Assembly: GCA_029858565.1 (NCBI GenBank)
Contig: JAOUEV010000023.1
Location: 1-48,367, forward strand
Direction of reading: 5' to 3'
DNA: 48,367 nucleotides
Source of the DNA: Nitrospirota bacterium
GTDB lineage: Bacteria; Nitrospirota; UBA9217
The notes below the pieces were generated by a model. The model had not been told where the DNA came from. It saw nothing but the letters and a program-made list of their open reading frames with translations, and made no database searches. The translations under genes and the position numbers were made by a program. Every line of letters begins with the position of its first letter. The stretch's first letter is position 1. Positions 15,731 to 39,743 of this stretch are shown piece by piece.

Positions 15731-18208
15731 TCAGCGGGGCAGCGAAGGCGCGGGAATATCCCGCACGATCCCCGCGGGATCATAGGGCAGCACAGTGATC
15801 TCCCGGTCCTTCACCACCAGCAGCAGGTTGTTCCTGGCAGCCAGATCGATGAGCACTTTGTTCCAGGCGCCGGTGGCCCTGAGCGTCAGTGCCCGGTCCA
15901 TGCCCGCGACCGCGTTGATCCTGTAGCCGTCCTGGAACGCCGGCGACGCCAGCCGCTTGATCACCTCTCCCAGTCTGCTTTTCGCGGCCTTGATAGCGAT
16001 GGTCTTCCCGTTCATGAGGGTCAGCGCCGGCGGCGGGAAGATACTTTCAGGATCCGCTCCGCGCTGGAGCAGCAGATTTGCCGCTTCCACGCTGCCCGCG
16101 GCACACGCTCTGCCCAGGGCGGTGCTCCCGTTCGCCGCCACGGCATTGACCGGCACGCCAAGGTCCAGGAGCGTCCGGGCCGCGGCCAGATGTCCATGCT
16201 GCACAGCCTCCATGAGCGGGGTCACGCCGTCAGGCAGCGCTGTCCGGAGACCGGCGCCTTTTTGCGCGAGCAGGGCGATGAGCTTCGCCTGGCCGCCCGC
16301 GGCCGCGGACCGCAGGGCGAAATCGCCGCTCCAGTCCAGGGCATTCGGATCAGCCCCACGGTCGATGAGCATCTCCGCGATCTCGGTCCTTCCCCGGGCG
16401 GCCGCCAGAAGCAGCGGCGTCCTCCCGGCCGCGTTCCTGCTGTTCACGTCCGCGCCCTTCTCCAGCAGGATGCGGATAATTGCCACATGCTCTTCCTTCA
16501 GGTTCGGCACGTCCACCGCCGCCTGGAGCGCGGTCGCGCCGGTCTCGGACGCCAGGGACAGGTGGTTCACCGCGGCGCCGCGCTCCACCAGCGACCGCAC
16601 GATCCTCTCCCGCCCCTGCCGTGCCGCGAGCATCAGCGCCGTGTTCCCCTTGGCGTCAGTCTGATCCAGCGCCTCTTTGCTCAGGTCCAGCAGCTTGGTA
16701 TACAGCCGGTCGTGGCCCAGCTCGCTGGCGATCATGAGAGCGGTCCGTCCCTGCCCGTTCACCGCCTCGGGATTCACGCCGGCCCTCAGGAACAGGTCCA
16801 CGGCATCCTCATTGTTCTTAGCCACTTCATCCAGGAACGCGGCATCGGTGAACTGCATGCCCTGCTGCACCACCTTTTTTGCGTAGTACCAGTGAAGAAG
16901 CTGCTCCTTGTAGACCAGCAGCGCTCCGGCCAGCAGCACCAGAAGGAGCGCCGCGGCGATCGCGCTGATGACCCAGGGATTCACCTCGGTAACGGCTGCG
17001 GTCTGCGGCTGTGACTGCGGCCTCTTCTCAGGCTTCTCTTTGGCCTTCTCAACAGCATCTGCCGCTTCCGGAGCAGCGGCAGATGGCTGAAGCTGTGGCT
17101 GTGACTGCGGCTGTATCTGTGGCTGCGGCTGCAATTGCGGCCTCTTCTCAGGCTTCTCTTCGGCCTTCTCAACAGCAGCCGCCGCTTCCGGGGCAGCGGC
17201 AGCCGGCTGCGAAGCAACGCTGACCGTGCTGAGCATGACCGACCCGGCGCTCTGCCCATCTGCCCGTTTTTTTACCCCCAGGTCCTCGTGCGCCTTTCGC
17301 TTCGCGCGGAGCACCTGCATGTCCAGAAAGGGCAGCGGCTCGAACTGCGCCAGATAACTGCCGGCACGGCTCTGCAGCACCAGTGCAGCCACATCGACCA
17401 GCACTCCGCAGACAAGACCGATCACGCCCCCCCACCCGGCGGATCCGAAGATCAGGCCGAAGAGCAGCCCTGCCGGCAGCAGGGCCGCTGGCGGCGCCCA
17501 CCAGAAGCGGAAGGCCCCGTCGATCGTTTCGAGCAGTTTCTTCTGCTTGAACGGCAGCCCCTCCGGCGTGTTCAGGAAGGCGGTCCATTCCGCAGCGTCG
17601 GCCTGCAGTGCCTGCAAGTGCTTCTTGATGTATTTGGCGACCTCGCCATGCCCTGATTCTTCGGCCAGTTGCAGCGCGGTCTTTTTCGAGACCGTGAGCG
17701 CGTTGACATCGACCCCCGAGTGCAGCAGGTACTCGACGATGTCGGTGCCGGCCTGATCAAATGCCGCCTTGTGCAGGGCCGTCCATTCGTCCGGGTCCTT
17801 CGCGTTCACATTCGCGCCGGCCTGGATCAGCGTTTCGGCAAGATCGCGCCGGCCGGCCGATGCGGCGATGAACAGAGGAGTACTTCCGTCTCGGGTCACG
17901 TTCGCGTTGACGCCTTCGGCGATGAGCTTCTTGACCGTTTCCAGGTCGCCAGCCTCGAGCGCTTCGCGGAACTGGGGCCATTTCTGCGCAGTGACCGAGG
18001 TCTGTCCGGGAATGTATTTTGACTTGGCTTTGGGCTGGGGTTGAGGCTTGGTCTTCGGCTTGATCTTGGGCTGTGCGCCGGGAGCGCCAGGAACATGGGC
18101 AGCAGGAGCAGGGGCGGCTACGGGATCTTCGGGAACGTCAAGGGTGATCGGGTCGTCCTGCCCGACCTTCGGCTCGATCTCAGGCTGGTCTTGCGTTTCG
18201 TTTTCCAT
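15731..18208 (-). CDS. Large membrane ankyrin-repeat protein with STN-like C-terminus
   Basis: About 825 residues. An acidic, Pro-rich N-terminus leads into a first ankyrin block of about four repeats (about residues 75-200, with DGSTPLFIAASAGRRDLAET). A hydrophobic hairpin follows (about 235-285), then two copies of a 40-residue Ala/Glu/Lys/Gln-Pro linker (about 330-410), a membrane helix (about 420-443), and a second block of eight or so ankyrin repeats (about 455-740). The last 70 residues (LTLRATGAWNKVLIDLAARN, then a short strand pair) resemble the STN domain of secretins and TonB receptors. Topology and partners are unknown. AAGGGGAG lies 6 nt before the ATG at 18208. The extreme C-terminus lies just beyond the AlkD-like gene's 5' flank. 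Confidence 0.85.
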   Translation of the reverse strand: MENETQDQPEIEPKVGQDDPITLDVPEDPVAAPAPAAHVPGAPGAQPKIKPKTKPQPQPKAKSKYIPGQTSVTAQKWPQFREALEAGDLETVKKLIAEGVNANVTRDGSTPLFIAASAGRRDLAETLIQAGANVNAKDPDEWTALHKAAFDQAGTDIVEYLLHSGVDVNALTVSKKTALQLAEESGHGEVAKYIKKHLQALQADAAEWTAFLNTPEGLPFKQKKLLETIDGAFRFWWAPPAALLPAGLLFGLIFGSAGWGGVIGLVCGVLVDVAALVLQSRAGSYLAQFEPLPFLDMQVLRAKRKAHEDLGVKKRADGQSAGSVMLSTVSVASQPAAAAPEAAAAVEKAEEKPEKRPQLQPQPQIQPQSQPQLQPSAAAPEAADAVEKAKEKPEKRPQSQPQTAAVTEVNPWVISAIAAALLLVLLAGALLVYKEQLLHWYYAKKVVQQGMQFTDAAFLDEVAKNNEDAVDLFLRAGVNPEAVNGQGRTALMIASELGHDRLYTKLLDLSKEALDQTDAKGNTALMLAARQGRERIVRSLVERGAAVNHLSLASETGATALQAAVDVPNLKEEHVAIIRILLEKGADVNSRNAAGRTPLLLAAARGRTEIAEMLIDRGADPNALDWSGDFALRSAAAGGQAKLIALLAQKGAGLRTALPDGVTPLMEAVQHGHLAAARTLLDLGVPVNAVAANGSTALGRACAAGSVEAANLLLQRGADPESIFPPPALTLMNGKTIAIKAAKSRLGEVIKRLASPAFQDGYRINAVAGMDRALTLRATGAWNKVLIDLAARNNLLLVVKDREITVLPYDPAGIVRDIPAPSLPR
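17019..17210. repeat. Direct repeat inside the ankyrin gene
   Basis: A segment of about 70 bp at 17019-17090 recurs at 17139-17210, exactly 120 bp (40 codons) away, with few mismatches. Between them the DNA is a 6-nt period array encoding Gln-Pro/Gln-Ser pairs. This is a recent in-frame linker duplication that could expand or contract. Confidence 0.75.
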
Positions 18209-18244
18209 GCAGGGCTCCCCTTGCATAGCCGGTGCGTACGCATA

Positions 18245-18273
18245 ACTATACCATGAACCGGGTACTGCTTCAA
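18245..18273 (-). promoter_or_regulatory. Promoter of the ankyrin-protein gene
   Basis: TTGAAG (18273-18268) and TATAGT (18250-18245) are separated by 17 bp on the minus strand, matching at 4/6 and 5/6. The leader would be about 30 nt and contain the ribosome site before 18208. Confidence 0.6.
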
Positions 18274-18349
18274 CCGCCACTATTGGGGCCGGGAACGATC
18301 AGCGGCTGCCCGGGATTATTCCAGTATTATCACCGCGGCATGCCGCCGC

Positions 18350-20459: not shown

Positions 20460-20488
20460 TTGACAATAGGTCATCTGTGACCTATATT
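20460..20488 (+). promoter_or_regulatory. Consensus promoter with palindromic operator in the spacer
   Basis: TTGACA (20460-20465) and TATATT (20483-20488) are exactly 17 bp apart. The spacer and the first bases of the -10 box form a perfect palindrome ATAGGTCA-TCTG-TGACCTAT (20466-20485). A dimeric repressor bound there would occlude the promoter. It drives the histidine-kinase-like gene at 20575 with a leader of about 80 nt. Confidence 0.75.
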
Positions 20489-20574: not shown

Positions 20575-21516
20575 ATGCACGAAACTCCCCGATCCTCCAC
20601 CATCCTGCTGATCATCGGCGCGGTGGTCACCGCTGTAGCGGTGGCGCTGTTCCTGAACGCCCTCATGCTCAGGGATTTCCCGCAGGCCGGCCAGGACCTC
20701 CTGTCGGGCAGGTCGGTCGCGCGGTCAGCCGTTGCTTTCGCGCTGGTAACCGGCCTGGCGCTGATGCTGCTGTTCAAGCTTTTCCGGGCCCAGGGCTCCG
20801 GCACAGCCGCTCGCAAGCGCGACCGGACAGCGGAGAAAAAAGCGACTGTTGGTGAACATGCCGGAGAAGATGCGCCCGGCGAGATCATCTCCGACACGGC
20901 GGGAGAGCTCAGATCTTCCGTTGAAATGATCCAGGAGGAAATCGAGGAAATCCTGGAGGATGACGCGCCGGCCGACAAGGAGCACATGCAGTCGCTCTAC
21001 GAGGAAACCGACCGGCTCAGGAAGATCATCGACAGCATGGAGCAGCTGTCCCAGGCCCAGGCCATGGCCCGGGCGCTGAAAAAAGAGCCCGTGCAGGTCG
21101 AGCCGCTGCTCAGGAGCGTCATCGAGCGGACAAAGCTCGCGGTGACCGACAGGAACGTGACCTATTCCCTTGAGTGCGAGCCGGGGCTGATCCTGCAGGG
21201 CGATGAGGGATGCGTCAGCCGCATCATCGGCAACATCGCGGAGAACGCCGCGCGGTCCATCAAAGGCTCCGGGAACGTGACCCTGGCCGCCGCCCGCAAG
21301 GACGCCGGTGTGGTCTTCTCGGTCCGGGACACGGGGACCGGGATCAGGCGGTCCCATCTCTCGCATATCTATGAACGGTTCTTCCGCGGCACCGGTTCGG
21401 GCATCGGCATGGGGCTTTCGGTCGTGAAGGAGCTGGTGGATGCCTGCGGCGGCAGGATCGATGTAGAGACCGCTGTCAACAAGGGCACGACATTTACCGT
21501 GCAGCTGCCGGAGTGA
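20575..21516 (+). CDS. Histidine-kinase-like membrane protein lacking the phosphoacceptor His
   Basis: A 313-residue protein with two membrane helices (about 10-31 and 51-70) and only about 20 residues between them. The dimerisation region aligns with HisKA kinases, but the H box reads DTAGELRSSVEMI (108-120) where SHELRTPL is expected: Gly110 replaces the His and the Pro is also lost. The second helix (ETDRLRKIIDSMEQLSQ) is normal. The ATP-binding domain is intact: N box GNIAENAARS with Asn224, G1 RDTGTGI, F box YERFF and G2 GSGIGMGLSVVKE. It may bind ATP and act as a phosphatase, a heterodimer partner or a sensor without autophosphorylation. No response regulator is adjacent. It has an operator-containing promoter; the ribosome site (AGGAAACGAG) is modest. 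Confidence 0.8.
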   Translation: MHETPRSSTILLIIGAVVTAVAVALFLNALMLRDFPQAGQDLLSGRSVARSAVAFALVTGLALMLLFKLFRAQGSGTAARKRDRTAEKKATVGEHAGEDAPGEIISDTAGELRSSVEMIQEEIEEILEDDAPADKEHMQSLYEETDRLRKIIDSMEQLSQAQAMARALKKEPVQVEPLLRSVIERTKLAVTDRNVTYSLECEPGLILQGDEGCVSRIIGNIAENAARSIKGSGNVTLAAARKDAGVVFSVRDTGTGIRRSHLSHIYERFFRGTGSGIGMGLSVVKELVDACGGRIDVETAVNKGTTFTVQLPE

Positions 21517-21604: not shown

Positions 21605-21628
21605 GCTGCATTACGCAAAGGGATATTG

Positions 21629-22990
21629 ATGAACACGGAATTGTACGAAAAAGTGCGCAGGAACCTCTTCGGCGGCCACAACCAGAACGCCTTTATGCAG
21701 CTCCTCACGGCCCGGGACGCGGTTCGCGGGCCGCTCCAGGGAACGCCCGAGGAGTTCTCCCAGATACTCTACGAACTTACCCGGGGCGAACTGAGCAGGC
21801 GGAACGAAACCCTGTCCTACGAGACCGTTGCCAAGGGAAAGAAGGACCTCCTGAAGTTCCGGGACGGCTCCCTGTTCCGGGTCGTCCGCGCAAAGGGCCA
21901 GCTCGGCGGGGTCCTGGTCGTTGTAACGCCCTATCTGCAGTCCATGGAAGACCTACTCGACACACGGGAGCAGCCGCTTGCGCGTTTGGTGGCCGACAGC
22001 CTTTCGATACGCGACGCTTTCCGCCGCGTTGCCGATGAATACCGGCGGGAAGAGATGCGCGAGGCGTCAGCCAGGGCAGGCGCCGAGATCAGGATGGCCC
22101 GCGAGAGCAAGCTCGAGAACATCGTTTCGACCATCGAAAACGCGAAAAGCGGGGAAACGGTCCTGGTCCGGGGCCAGCAGAACATTGATGCCCTTGTTGA
22201 TCTCGGTTTCGTTCCCAGCCTGGTGGACAATCCCGACAACTGGATCGATGCCGAGGATTCTCCGGGGCTGCGCTATCGCCATGCCCGGAGCGGCATCGAG
22301 CTCCTCCTGACGGGCCGCGAGCGGTTCCGGCCCATTGAGGAGCCGGCGCGGCTGGAGTTCCTCTTCCTGGTGCACCGGAGCGACAACGACCCCGCGGCCT
22401 TCGGGAATATGGCGCGAAAGTACCGGGCGTGCCGCAGGGACGGGACCGCCTACGGGATGAAGGATTTCCACAACGACCTGATCGCGCTGGTCAAGTATCC
22501 CGAGGAGCTCAAGGGAAGGACCGAGGAGGACCTGGGGCTCATGGCCGACGAGGTCGAGAATGTGATCGACCGGCGGCAGGAGCTGGACAAGGGCATCCTG
22601 CCCTACGAGGCGGTATTCAGCAAGAACACCGCCTTGATCATCGACCATGTGCGGAAGAACCGGATACCCTCCCGGGAGGTCCGGAAGGCGCTCGATTATT
22701 TCGAATATACCGGCATGATCACCCCGGAATACCGGGCCGAGCTGCATCAGCAGATCTCGGCCGCCACCGAGGACCCGATCTCCGCGGGCGAGAGCGCGGC
22801 GGATATGCTCTACGACCGGAGGGTCAAGGAGATCGTTGCCGACGTGCTGAAGAAGATCCCCAAGGAGCGGCTGACCTCTGCGACGATCACCCTGGCGCTG
22901 ACGCCCTATGTGAGCGAATTGGGGTTCGGCAGGCTCATCAAGATACGGGAGCGGATCCTTAAACTGAAGCAGATGGTGCATGAGCAGTAG
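21629..22990 (+). CDS. Unknown soluble protein, 453 residues
   Basis: No recognised domain. It has no signal peptide or membrane helix and is rich in Glu, Arg and Asp. An N-terminal helical part (about 1-60) contains GGHNQNAFMQLLTARDAV. A mixed region with a strand-rich segment FRVVRAKGQLGGVLVVVTPY follows (about 90-110), then a long charged helix (about 135-185) and a helical C-terminal half ending KIRERILKLKQMVHEQ. The start at 21629 is chosen over an upstream frame extension because AAAGGG lies 6 nt before it and the upstream DNA is repeat sequence. The S4-domain gene starts 11 bp after its stop, and smpB follows, which hints at a role near the ribosome or RNA, but this is only context. 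Confidence 0.7.
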   Translation: MNTELYEKVRRNLFGGHNQNAFMQLLTARDAVRGPLQGTPEEFSQILYELTRGELSRRNETLSYETVAKGKKDLLKFRDGSLFRVVRAKGQLGGVLVVVTPYLQSMEDLLDTREQPLARLVADSLSIRDAFRRVADEYRREEMREASARAGAEIRMARESKLENIVSTIENAKSGETVLVRGQQNIDALVDLGFVPSLVDNPDNWIDAEDSPGLRYRHARSGIELLLTGRERFRPIEEPARLEFLFLVHRSDNDPAAFGNMARKYRACRRDGTAYGMKDFHNDLIALVKYPEELKGRTEEDLGLMADEVENVIDRRQELDKGILPYEAVFSKNTALIIDHVRKNRIPSREVRKALDYFEYTGMITPEYRAELHQQISAATEDPISAGESAADMLYDRRVKEIVADVLKKIPKERLTSATITLALTPYVSELGFGRLIKIRERILKLKQMVHEQ

Positions 22991-36536: not shown

Positions 36537-37319
36537 ATGCTGGTCATTGCCGACAACCTGAACGTGCGGAACGCGGTCTGGCGGGAAGCGCTCAAGAAGC
36601 AGGACCGTAAGGCGATCGAGACCCTGGCGCAAGAACTGACGGCTCTGGGCGCGGACATGATCAGCGTCCAGACGTCCTCCGACGGAAGCGGTGACGAGGA
36701 CGCACTCCCCTTTGCCGTGGAAGCGCTCCAGCACGACACCGCGCTGCCTCTCTGCCTGGACTCACGGAACCTCAAGGCGCTCAGGCGCGCGGTCTCCGTG
36801 ACCAAAGAGCCTCCGCTCATCAATTATCTTTCAGCTGACGAGAAGAAAAGCGATGACATCCTGAGGCTCGTGCGGGAATCGAAATCTTCCCTCGTGCTTC
36901 GCGCGTTAAAGGGAACGGTCCCGGTGACGCTCGAGGCACGGCTCCTGATCCTTGAGAACCTGCTGGAACAGGCGAATGCCGCGGACATTCCCAATGAACG
37001 GCTCTATGCCGACCCGTCGGTCGTCCACATCGGCGGCGGTTCGGGCCAGGAGCACCTTCAGCACGCCCACGAGTCCCTGAACGCGCTCCATTCCCTGATC
37101 GATCCGCCGATCAACACAACGGTCTGGGTCTCGAACGTCACCGCGGGCCTTCCTCAGAAGACCAGAAGTCTCGTGGCCTCGTCCTTCCTTACCTACCTTG
37201 CCGGCGCCGGACTTACGGCGGCTTTTCTCGATGTCCGCGACCGGGAGCTGATGAAAGCTGTCTATCTCATCCGGACCTTCCGAGACGAGACCGTGTTCAC
37301 GCCCGCTGATCTGGCGTGA
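36537..37319 (+). CDS. Pterin-binding methyltransferase related to AcsE (MeTr)
   Basis: A 260-residue TIM barrel of the pterin-binding family that includes the methyltetrahydrofolate:corrinoid iron-sulfur protein methyltransferase of the Wood-Ljungdahl pathway. It keeps LCLDSRN (pterin Asp), the Asn in PPLINYLSADE, YADPSVVHI and WVSNVTAGLP with the Asn that assists methyl transfer. It differs at two places: the N-terminal motif is ADNLNVR instead of GERINGM, and the ALDLNVG strand reads MISVQTS. The reaction may therefore use another pterin or serve another acceptor. GGGGGG lies 5 nt before the ATG. No CFeSP or carbon monoxide dehydrogenase gene is in the window. Confidence 0.75.
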   Translation: MLVIADNLNVRNAVWREALKKQDRKAIETLAQELTALGADMISVQTSSDGSGDEDALPFAVEALQHDTALPLCLDSRNLKALRRAVSVTKEPPLINYLSADEKKSDDILRLVRESKSSLVLRALKGTVPVTLEARLLILENLLEQANAADIPNERLYADPSVVHIGGGSGQEHLQHAHESLNALHSLIDPPINTTVWVSNVTAGLPQKTRSLVASSFLTYLAGAGLTAAFLDVRDRELMKAVYLIRTFRDETVFTPADLA

Positions 37320-37355
37320 GGGAATCTGTGGTGTCTTGATACAAATCCAACAGTA

Positions 37356-37384
37356 TTGACAAAAAGATCAAGCTAAGCAATAAT
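37356..37384 (+). promoter_or_regulatory. Promoter of the vsr-M-R island
   Basis: TTGACA (37356-37361) and AATAAT (37379-37384) are 17 bp apart (6/6 and 5/6), about 75 bp before the Vsr start. Confidence 0.6.
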
Positions 37385-37459
37385 GCGGTATGCACCAACG
37401 CACTTCTCGATGGACGAATCTCAGGGCAGAGCACCGCTAGTCCGCATCCGGAATTAGCT

Positions 37460-37882
37460 GTGGATACACTATCAAAATCGGAAAGAAGTAAAAGAATGTC
37501 CCTCATCAAAGGTAGGGACACAAAACCTGAGCTTATAGTTCGACGTTTAATATTTAGCTTAGGCTATCGTTACCGATTGCATCGGAGAGATTTACCTGGT
37601 AAACCAGATATAGCATTCCCATCCAAATCCAAAGCAATCTTCATACACGGATGCTTCTGGCATCGTCATCGCCGAGCAAGCTGCAAGTTAGCAAGACTGC
37701 CGAAATCAAAATTGGATTTTTGGCTCCCCAAATTGTCGAGCAACGAACTTCGAGACAAGACCAAACAAACGGCTTTACGCCGTCTCGGCTGGAAAGTACT
37801 GGTCATTTGGGAATGTGAATTGGCCAACGTGAATAAATTAATAAATAAAATAGTCGACTTTCTTAATCAGGAGAAAAAATGA
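37460..37882 (+). CDS. vsr: Vsr-type very-short-patch repair endonuclease
   Basis: A 140-residue Vsr. The family start SERSKRMSLIKGRDTKPE is followed by LPGKPDIAFPSK with the catalytic Asp, IHGCFWHRH with the two active-site His five residues apart, and LRRLGWKVLVIWECEL. It nicks 5' of the T in T:G mismatches that arise when 5-methylcytosine deaminates, here presumably at the partner methyltransferase's site. The GTG start at 37460 keeps the full family N-terminus; the ribosome site is weak. Its stop overlaps the methyltransferase start by 4 bp (ATGA). Codon use is AT-rich compared with the flanks, so this is an acquired island. Confidence 0.93.
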   Translation: MDTLSKSERSKRMSLIKGRDTKPELIVRRLIFSLGYRYRLHRRDLPGKPDIAFPSKSKAIFIHGCFWHRHRRASCKLARLPKSKLDFWLPKLSSNELRDKTKQTALRRLGWKVLVIWECELANVNKLINKIVDFLNQEKK

Positions 37883-39093
37883 GATCAGTGGAACTCTTCG
37901 CCGGTGCCGGCGGACTTGGCATGGGTATAAGTCTCGCTGGTTTTGAGCATGCTGCGGTCGTGGAATGGGACAAGTGGTCCTGCGACACGATTCGCGAAAA
38001 TCAAGCAAGAGGCTATCCCCTTGTGTCGGATTGGGCGCTTACGGAAACAGACGTAAGATCTTTTGACTTTTCACGAATTCCAGAGGGAATAGATTTGGTT
38101 GCTGGCGGTCCGCCATGTCAGCCCTTTTCGATGGGAGGAAAACACAAAGCATACTTTGACGATCGAGACATGTTTCCTACAACTATTGATGTTATTCGCA
38201 GATTAAGACCACGCGCATTCATTATTGAAAACGTAAAGGGCCTGACGCGGCCATCATTCGCCAATTATTATCAATATATCCTACTGCAATTGGAATTCCC
38301 CGAAGTCTCGAAACGCAAGAATGAAGATTGGCAGGATCATTATCGACGTTTGCAGTCCGAAAAAACTAGCGGTCGTCTTCATAACGGCGGTCATCTGGCC
38401 TACAACGTCGTCCCCACACTCGTTAACGCCGCAGACTATGGTATTCCCCAAAAACGAGAGCGTGTTTTCATTGTTGGCTTCCGCGATAATCAAGGCATAC
38501 AATGGAGCTTCCCAAGAGAAACGCACGGATTGGACGCGTTACTATTCGATCAGTGGGTAACGGGACACTACTGGGATAGACATGAAATATCAAAACGAAG
38601 GCGCGCTTCCCTCCCATTGGTTTACGAAAAACGTATCAAGCGACTGCGTGAAGTTGACGCTCCCAAGCTACAGCCTTGGCGAACCGTGCGCGATGCCTTA
38701 ATAGGGTTACCCAACCCCGAGAAAATATCTGAAACGGTCTATTTTAATCACCGTTTTCAATCAGGGGCTAAGTCATATCCTGGCCACACAGGCAGCCACC
38801 TGGACCTACCCGCGAAGACACTAAAAGCTGGCGATCATGGCGTGCCCGGCGGCGAAAATATGATGATTAAGGACAATGGCGAGTTCAGATACTTTACCGT
38901 TCGGGAGTCTGCACGCATTCAAACCTTCCCGGATGGATATGTATTCCATGGCACATGGACCGAATCGATGCGCCAACTCGGCAATGCTGTACCCGTTGCC
39001 TTAGCGCAAATCGTTGCGACCAGCGTGGTTGCGAAACTTGTCGAAAGTCAGACAGATATATTCCTCCAGCAATTTACAGGAGCATCCAATTGA
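37879..39093 (+). CDS. C5-cytosine DNA methyltransferase
   Basis: A 404-residue m5C methyltransferase with motifs in order: I VELFAGAGGLGMGI (about 4-17), IV VAGGPPCQPFS with catalytic Cys (about 73-83), VI FIIENVKGL, VIII QKRERVFIVGFRD, then the variable target-recognition region, IX and X RQLGNAVPVALA. It methylates cytosine within a short palindrome that is not predictable from motifs alone, although its neighbour suggests CCGCGG (Eco29kI-like). The ribosome site (GGAGAA) is in the end of vsr, and its TGA overlaps the TTG start of the endonuclease gene. The three genes therefore form a tight vsr-M-R operon. Confidence 0.93.
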   Translation: MRSVELFAGAGGLGMGISLAGFEHAAVVEWDKWSCDTIRENQARGYPLVSDWALTETDVRSFDFSRIPEGIDLVAGGPPCQPFSMGGKHKAYFDDRDMFPTTIDVIRRLRPRAFIIENVKGLTRPSFANYYQYILLQLEFPEVSKRKNEDWQDHYRRLQSEKTSGRLHNGGHLAYNVVPTLVNAADYGIPQKRERVFIVGFRDNQGIQWSFPRETHGLDALLFDQWVTGHYWDRHEISKRRRASLPLVYEKRIKRLREVDAPKLQPWRTVRDALIGLPNPEKISETVYFNHRFQSGAKSYPGHTGSHLDLPAKTLKAGDHGVPGGENMMIKDNGEFRYFTVRESARIQTFPDGYVFHGTWTESMRQLGNAVPVALAQIVATSVVAKLVESQTDIFLQQFTGASN

Positions 39094-39743
39094 GCTTGCA
39101 GAAACCATATAATCCCTTAGACAAGAAGAACCTTGGAGTATCTGTCGCGGAAGCGTTGCTGTCAAGGGATATCCTACCACTTAGCTCGCTTAAACCGTTT
39201 AATGGGGCGGGTGTTTATGTTATTTATTATACGGGTAATTTCGAGAGCTATCGCCTGATTTCGAAATTAAACAAACAGGGCAAGTTTCAAGCACCCATTT
39301 ATGTTGGCAAAGCCGTTCCGCCCGGCGCGCGGAAAGGTGGTTTCAACACCAGTGAGATGAAAACCAAGGCGCTGCATAATCGACTTATTGAGCACGCGGA
39401 AAGCATAAAGGTTGCCGATAATTTGAAAATTGAAGATTTTCATTGCCGTTTTTTGGTCGTTGATGATATTTGGATTCCACTAGGTGAATCACTGCTAATT
39501 GCAAAGTTTTCGCCGTTATGGAACAAGCTTATAGACGGCTTTGGAAACCACGATCCCGGCAAAGGAAGATATGAAGGGCTTTGTTCGCGTTGGGATGTCT
39601 TACATCCTGGCAGGAGTTGGGCCACCAAATGTCGCCAGCGTTCCGAGACAATCGTGCAAATAAAAAATGATATAGAAGAGTATTATCGAGCCCACCCGCT
39701 ACTTGCCAAAGGCATATTTCATCTACCTGTCGATGAAGAATAG
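39090..39743 (+). CDS. GIY-YIG type II restriction endonuclease (Eco29kI-like)
   Basis: A 217-residue nuclease. The active-site residues of Eco29kI-type GIY-YIG enzymes are all recognisable: Tyr in GVYVIYYTG (about 47-55), Tyr in PIYVGKA, Arg and His in NRLIEHAES (R-x3-H spacing), Glu in PLGESLLIA and Asn in SPLWN. It should cleave the same site that the neighbouring methyltransferase protects. The TTG start at 39090 overlaps the methyltransferase stop (TTGA) and has AGGAG about 8 nt upstream; a longer frame into the methyltransferase gene is a shadow. CCGCGG, the Eco29kI site, occurs in this window (for example 413-418 and 18333-18338), so it is not avoided here. Confidence 0.85.
   Translation: MSLQKPYNPLDKKNLGVSVAEALLSRDILPLSSLKPFNGAGVYVIYYTGNFESYRLISKLNKQGKFQAPIYVGKAVPPGARKGGFNTSEMKTKALHNRLIEHAESIKVADNLKIEDFHCRFLVVDDIWIPLGESLLIAKFSPLWNKLIDGFGNHDPGKGRYEGLCSRWDVLHPGRSWATKCRQRSETIVQIKNDIEEYYRAHPLLAKGIFHLPVDEE

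Follow-up and report, generated by a model that had tools for sequence, protein, structure and literature searches.

Pseudo-histidine kinases are already a known kind of protein, exemplified by DivL, RetS, RocA and a truncated ChrS. DivL of Caulobacter carries tyrosine or, in one species, alanine at the phosphoacceptor site, binds DivK~P through an intact DHp and binds ATP weakly (PMC4211667). RetS of Pseudomonas, a kinase-like protein that is unable to autophosphorylate and acts on other proteins, has kept HExxT and lost its G boxes (PMC5992135). RocA of group A Streptococcus, a membrane pseudokinase without kinase output, combines six transmembrane helices and a dispensable histidine with a degenerate CA domain (PMC7028121), and the truncated ChrS, selected in the laboratory, has a damaged ATP domain (PMC9491836). 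In FasBC, labour is divided between two kinase-like proteins (PMC12675982).

The window, the whole stretch of 48,367 nucleotides analysed here, encodes a protein that resembles DivL in its replaced phosphoacceptor and DHp-CA fold, RetS in a kinase-like build that would not autophosphorylate and may act on other proteins, and RocA as a membrane pseudokinase probably lacking kinase output. It differs from DivL in the eroding DHp and complete ATP motifs of its family, from RetS in the reversed pattern of loss, and from RocA in having two transmembrane helices, Gly110 and a complete CA domain. Across the pseudokinases compared from the open literature (DivL, RetS and RocA), the ATP domain is weakened or lost and the dimerisation/phosphotransfer domain kept; the present family shows the reverse, and offers a natural experiment on what the catalytic domain of a histidine kinase is capable of when it has no histidine of its own.

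Protein anatomy and the phosphoacceptor site

The open reading frame at 20575-21516 (+ strand) specifies a pair of transmembrane helices followed by a disordered linker, then two DHp-like helices and a full HATPase_c domain, laid out as follows:

20575 to 21516, + strand: H-less, sensor-less histidine-kinase-like protein of 313 aa, ATG start
20590 to 20796, + strand: two transmembrane helices, residues 6-33 and 44-74 in the AlphaFold2 model, with a loop of ~10 residues
20800 to 20871, + strand: disordered linker, residues 76-99, pLDDT <50, rapidly evolving, HAMP absent
20875 to 20958, + strand: degenerate DHp helix 1, residues 101-128
20902 to 20904, + strand: GGA codon of Gly110, at the phosphoacceptor His position
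20977 to 21072, + strand: conserved DHp helix 2, residues 135-166, with R147, L158 and A161 family-invariant
21202 to 21513, + strand: HATPase_c (CA) domain with complete N, G1, F and G2 boxes

The protein has no periplasmic sensor domain, whereas its full-length relatives have both a sensor domain and HAMP. The CA domain matches PF02518 (HATPase_c, Pfam) over residues 210-312 (E 8.7e-23), while PF00512 (HisKA) stays below its curated cut-off, at 17.7 versus 26.9 bits, with an alignment that starts only at residue 112. The ATP motifs comprise N220/N224 (N box), D252-x-G254-x-G256 (G1), F269 (F box) and G276-x-G278-x-G280-L281 (G2). Among these, N224, D252, G254, G256, F269, G276, G278, G280 and L281 do not vary across the seven family members. 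The AlphaFold2 model has a mean pLDDT of 82.9, with a confident CA domain (pLDDT about 95) that resembles kinase structures with ADP or ATP bound, among them ZraS (9jfj) and YycG (4zki). A fold search places nucleotide-bound (ADP or ATP) cores of histidine kinases at the top, with DivL within the first ten, and by sequence no PDB entry matches better than DivL (4q20, E 3.8e-23). Motifs and model agree in suggesting that the protein would bind ATP or ADP.

The earlier note had described an H box with ELR retained, Gly in place of His and Ser in place of Pro, beside a full set of ATPase motifs. All of this is borne out: the window reads GELRSS against HELRTP, its S-D-T-A-G110-E-L-R-S-S aligning with S-N-x-A-H-E-L-R-T-P of the nearest H-bearing kinases. 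Seven family members were compared, one of which is cut by a contig end, leaving six that cover the site; His is found there in none of the six and in all 25 full-length relatives aligned. The nearest orthologue (in G009, 59% identical) also carries Gly, the G007 member is aligned with Gly, and the remaining members carry unrelated residues. A sequencing slip is ruled out because GGA lies at least two changes from CAC/CAT and the G009 orthologue, from an independent assembly, shares the Gly. The comparison of orthologues that the note had proposed at residue 110 thus returned no His, and no substitute His is conserved among them in the DHp region. H264 was rejected as an alternative: it is family-invariant but lies within the F-box region of the CA domain, outside the DHp. 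The ExxT/N motif that follows the phosphoacceptor position reads ELRS in the window and ELRM in the G009 orthologue, and is lost in the other members. Conserved loss of the phosphoacceptor is thus combined with histidine-kinase ancestry, as in pseudo-histidine kinases of the broad, DivL-like sense; to a signalling function without autophosphorylation, the purifying selection described below speaks only indirectly.

Single origin and uneven selection

Searched with a profile of the short proteins, seven of the order's 14 genomes contain the family. Over 396 genomes of the phylum, scores fall from 345 bits or more to 240 bits or less, the next matches being kinases of about 460 aa, and all examined ~460-aa kinases of this phylum-wide subfamily have His. 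In a tree built from helix 2 and the CA domain, all seven short proteins group together with 100/100 support, as a single clade inside the H-bearing subfamily. The pseudokinase family is confined to this bacterial order among the genomes searched, and has a single origin. Half of the order's genomes, including that of the same-genus G001 (94% complete), are without the gene, which is therefore dispensable.

Direct ancestry is traced to CpxA/PhoR-type HisKA-HATPase_c kinases of the phylum (L015, L017, L022 and others), which are 28-34% identical to the window protein over the aligned part. The two groups share the N-terminal segment, helix 2 and the CA domain; the CpxA/PhoR-type kinases in addition carry a sensor domain, HAMP, the His within HELRTP and mostly an adjacent PhoB-type regulator, none of which the window protein has. 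Since the N-termini are still alike (FLNALMLRDF in the window, FLRELMIRDF in the full-length proteins), the short protein is best read as a full-length kinase minus its sensor domain and HAMP, and the alignment suggests that these were removed from a full-length ancestor.

Purifying selection acts on helix 2 and the CA domain, with pairwise dN/dS of 0.07-0.32 (0.15-0.32 for CA), except for helix 2 in the most distant pair, L001 versus L018, at 0.64; helix 1 reaches 0.34 to 0.74 where computable, all these values being rough at such divergences, with dS often near saturation. Helix 1 and the barely alignable linker are much looser than helix 2 and CA in most pairs. In the close pair G008/G011, identity is 97% in helix 2 and 91% in CA, against 42% in helix 1 and 24% in the linker. 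The linker evolves almost freely, as does helix 1 outside the window's nearest relatives; the helix-1 region is modelled by AlphaFold2 at pLDDT 33-48 in the diverged G008 protein versus 84-88 in the window. Helix 1 is no less conserved than the CA domain between the window and G009 (71% and 67% identity), and the window's own sub-branch may therefore still use helix 1.

Genomic context and promoter

A cognate response regulator nearby is usual, though not obligatory, for HisKA-type kinases. Most full-length relatives examined adjoin a PhoB-type regulator, and several also adjoin small proteins that we take, from reading their sequences, to be CpxP/Spy-like. No receiver gene lies next to the window gene; the divergent upstream gene encodes an ABC1-domain protein. 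Neighbours common to the short genes of the carriers were not found, each genome being different, and gene neighbourhood was rejected as a route to the partner; the 454-aa protein encoded downstream does not vary in step with the short protein either. That downstream gene (21626-22990, + strand) has no Pfam match, and its relatives in other genomes of the order are 62-74% identical in four and 36% in one.

The genome carrying the window (G000) encodes some 58 HisKA proteins. It has neither a close full-length relative of the short protein (among the seven carriers, only G010 and G011 have such a relative) nor an orthologue of the regulator tested; a scan of its contigs found distant kinases only. 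With the parental kinase and its regulator both absent from G000, neither can be the partner there, and obligate pairing with this kinase is ruled out. One other protein of this genome, L006 (G000:C14:17556-18215), keeps intact HisKA and HATPase_c scores with Tyr at the phosphoacceptor (NIAYEVNNPL), a DivL-type substitution.

Upstream of the gene lie two overlapping features:

20460 to 20488, + strand: predicted sigma-70-like promoter, TTGACA-17-TATATT, 11 of 12 consensus matches
20466 to 20485: perfect palindrome ATAGGTCA-TCTG-TGACCTAT in the promoter spacer, a possible operator

The consensus promoter noted earlier stands as a prediction, and the perfect palindrome within it is real. Its proposed role as an operator is only suggestive, because the window has 22 perfect 8+8 palindromes (13 expected after shuffling) and this one was not found upstream of the four orthologues examined; chance could account for it. 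A conserved-operator reading was likewise dropped, since the other two exact G000 copies of AGGTCA-N4-TGACCT lie within genes and the four orthologues lack it upstream. The palindrome may be a local operator; it has no bearing on the function of the protein.

Proposed action in trans and its alternatives

The reading that we favour, with somewhat better than even confidence, is that of a lineage-restricted, membrane-anchored, ATP-binding pseudo-histidine kinase acting ATP-dependently in trans on another signalling protein. The anatomy, the loss of His, the single origin and the purifying selection on helix 2 and CA are directly supported; ATP binding and action in trans are what we infer. A CpxA/PhoR-type sensor kinase of the phylum would, in a single event of origin, have given rise to a protein that had shed its sensor on the periplasmic side, HAMP, the neighbouring response regulator and the phosphoacceptor His; DHp helix 1 would then have gone in part of the family, and the hairpin in the membrane, DHp helix 2 and a complete ATP-binding domain would have stayed. 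Autophosphorylation on a DHp histidine is impossible. The usual kinase and phosphatase outputs are unlikely, because there is no His, no ExxT motif and no regulator; as the parts preserved by selection are the hairpin in the membrane, helix 2 and the ATP domain, ATP-dependent action in trans is likely. The protein would bind ATP at the membrane, and its helix-2/CA unit would act on the other protein, the output being either a nucleotide-state-dependent change in partner activity or a CA domain lent to the partner's histidine. Among the three functions proposed earlier, an ATP-dependent signalling protein of another kind, in this in-trans version, fits best. The mechanistic alternatives overlap with the general statement, and the likelihoods given to them are not mutually exclusive.

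The alternative that survives best, which we rate as a minority possibility, is that the short protein and an ordinary histidine kinase heterodimerise by way of their DHp bundle, the former damping or steering the latter as RetS does GacS and RocA does CovS. The precedents of RetS (PMC5992135) and RocA (PMC7028121), the many HisKA proteins of G000, and a helix 1 that in the window and G009 is preserved like the CA domain and modelled as a helix are consistent with it. In other branches, however, helix 1 is lost or proline- and acid-rich, most carriers lack a close full-length relative, and the pattern is the opposite of that in RetS and RocA, where the DHp survives and the ATP site has been lost. 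The heterodimerising regulator of the earlier note may thus apply to the window's sub-branch; for the family as a whole, with its crumbled helix 1, and for the parental kinase as partner in G000, it does not hold.

Rather unlikely, in our estimate, is that the protein supplies the catalytic part of a split kinase and phosphorylates the His of a partner that has no CA domain of its own, as the FasB core serves FasC (PMC12675982). The intact CA domain beside the missing His agrees with such a role, and a PF00512/PF02518 search of G000 finds H-bearing HisKA proteins without HATPase_c at C62:59466, C2:2721 and C36:10878. FasB is comparable in that its DHp-CA part is sufficient without the membrane part and works with a second protein bearing the phosphorylated His; it differs in having candidate histidines and an adjacent partner gene, neither of which the window protein has. 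The CA-less genes never adjoin the short-protein gene, and with helix 1 lost it is doubtful that CA could dock on a DHp dimer in the usual way. CA-less proteins also occur in five of the seven non-carriers, and their co-occurrence with the short protein, tried as a route to the partner, is not significant (Fisher p 0.46 and 0.27, with almost no power at 7 of 14 carriers). As they do not track the short protein across the genomes, a split kinase remains speculation. Its specific form, in which unlinked genes supply a membrane-held CA domain that phosphorylates CA-less His-bearing sensors such as G000:C62:59466, is a shade less probable still.

The gene at G000:C62:59466-61394 (L094:467-2398) encodes a 643-aa sensor with an H-bearing HisKA (RHEVNNPL) that ends ~20 residues beyond it, with no HATPase_c; orthologues occur in 12 of the 14 genomes of the order, including all seven carriers, and the genes downstream in G000 are, as we read them, presumably SurA-like and SppA-like. 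L095 (G000:C2:2721-3338) joins a receiver to a HisKA in 206 aa; it has the His (HELRNS), lacks HATPase_c and has relatives in 9 of 14 genomes. L093 (G000:C36:10878-12002) is a membrane protein that combines a haem-type CxxCH motif with a His-bearing HisKA, again with no HATPase_c; relatives in the order exist for its sensor part alone.

A phosphatase-only or response-regulator-binding protein of the DivL type appears improbable, although DivL, with Tyr at the site and DivK~P as its ligand (PMC4211667), is the closest sequence in the PDB. The phosphatase-only function proposed earlier fails on the loss of the ExxT motif: HExxT has become GELRS in the window, with S at the ExxT position, and GELRM, with M, in the G009 orthologue, and is unrecognisable elsewhere. 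The regulator-docking helix 1 is unconserved in the family, the parental regulator is absent from G000, and the weak ATP binding of DivL stands against the ATP motifs, which here are the part that is kept.

A slowly decaying, functionless relic is very improbable: patchy presence and the losses of sensor, HAMP, His and regulator would suit one, but the frame is open and the ATP motifs are complete in all members across four genera, and these orthologues and the dN/dS of the CA domain uphold the earlier argument against decay, to which the promoter and operator, also invoked there, lend no support.

Elsewhere in the window, the genes at 37297-39743 have a low third-position GC (0.40-0.49, versus about 0.8 around them), and two of them appear to encode a Vsr-type endonuclease and a DNA cytosine methyltransferase; the segment is probably a recently acquired modification cassette. 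The gene at 15731-18280 (- strand) encodes an 849-aa protein with two ankyrin-repeat blocks flanking a membrane segment.
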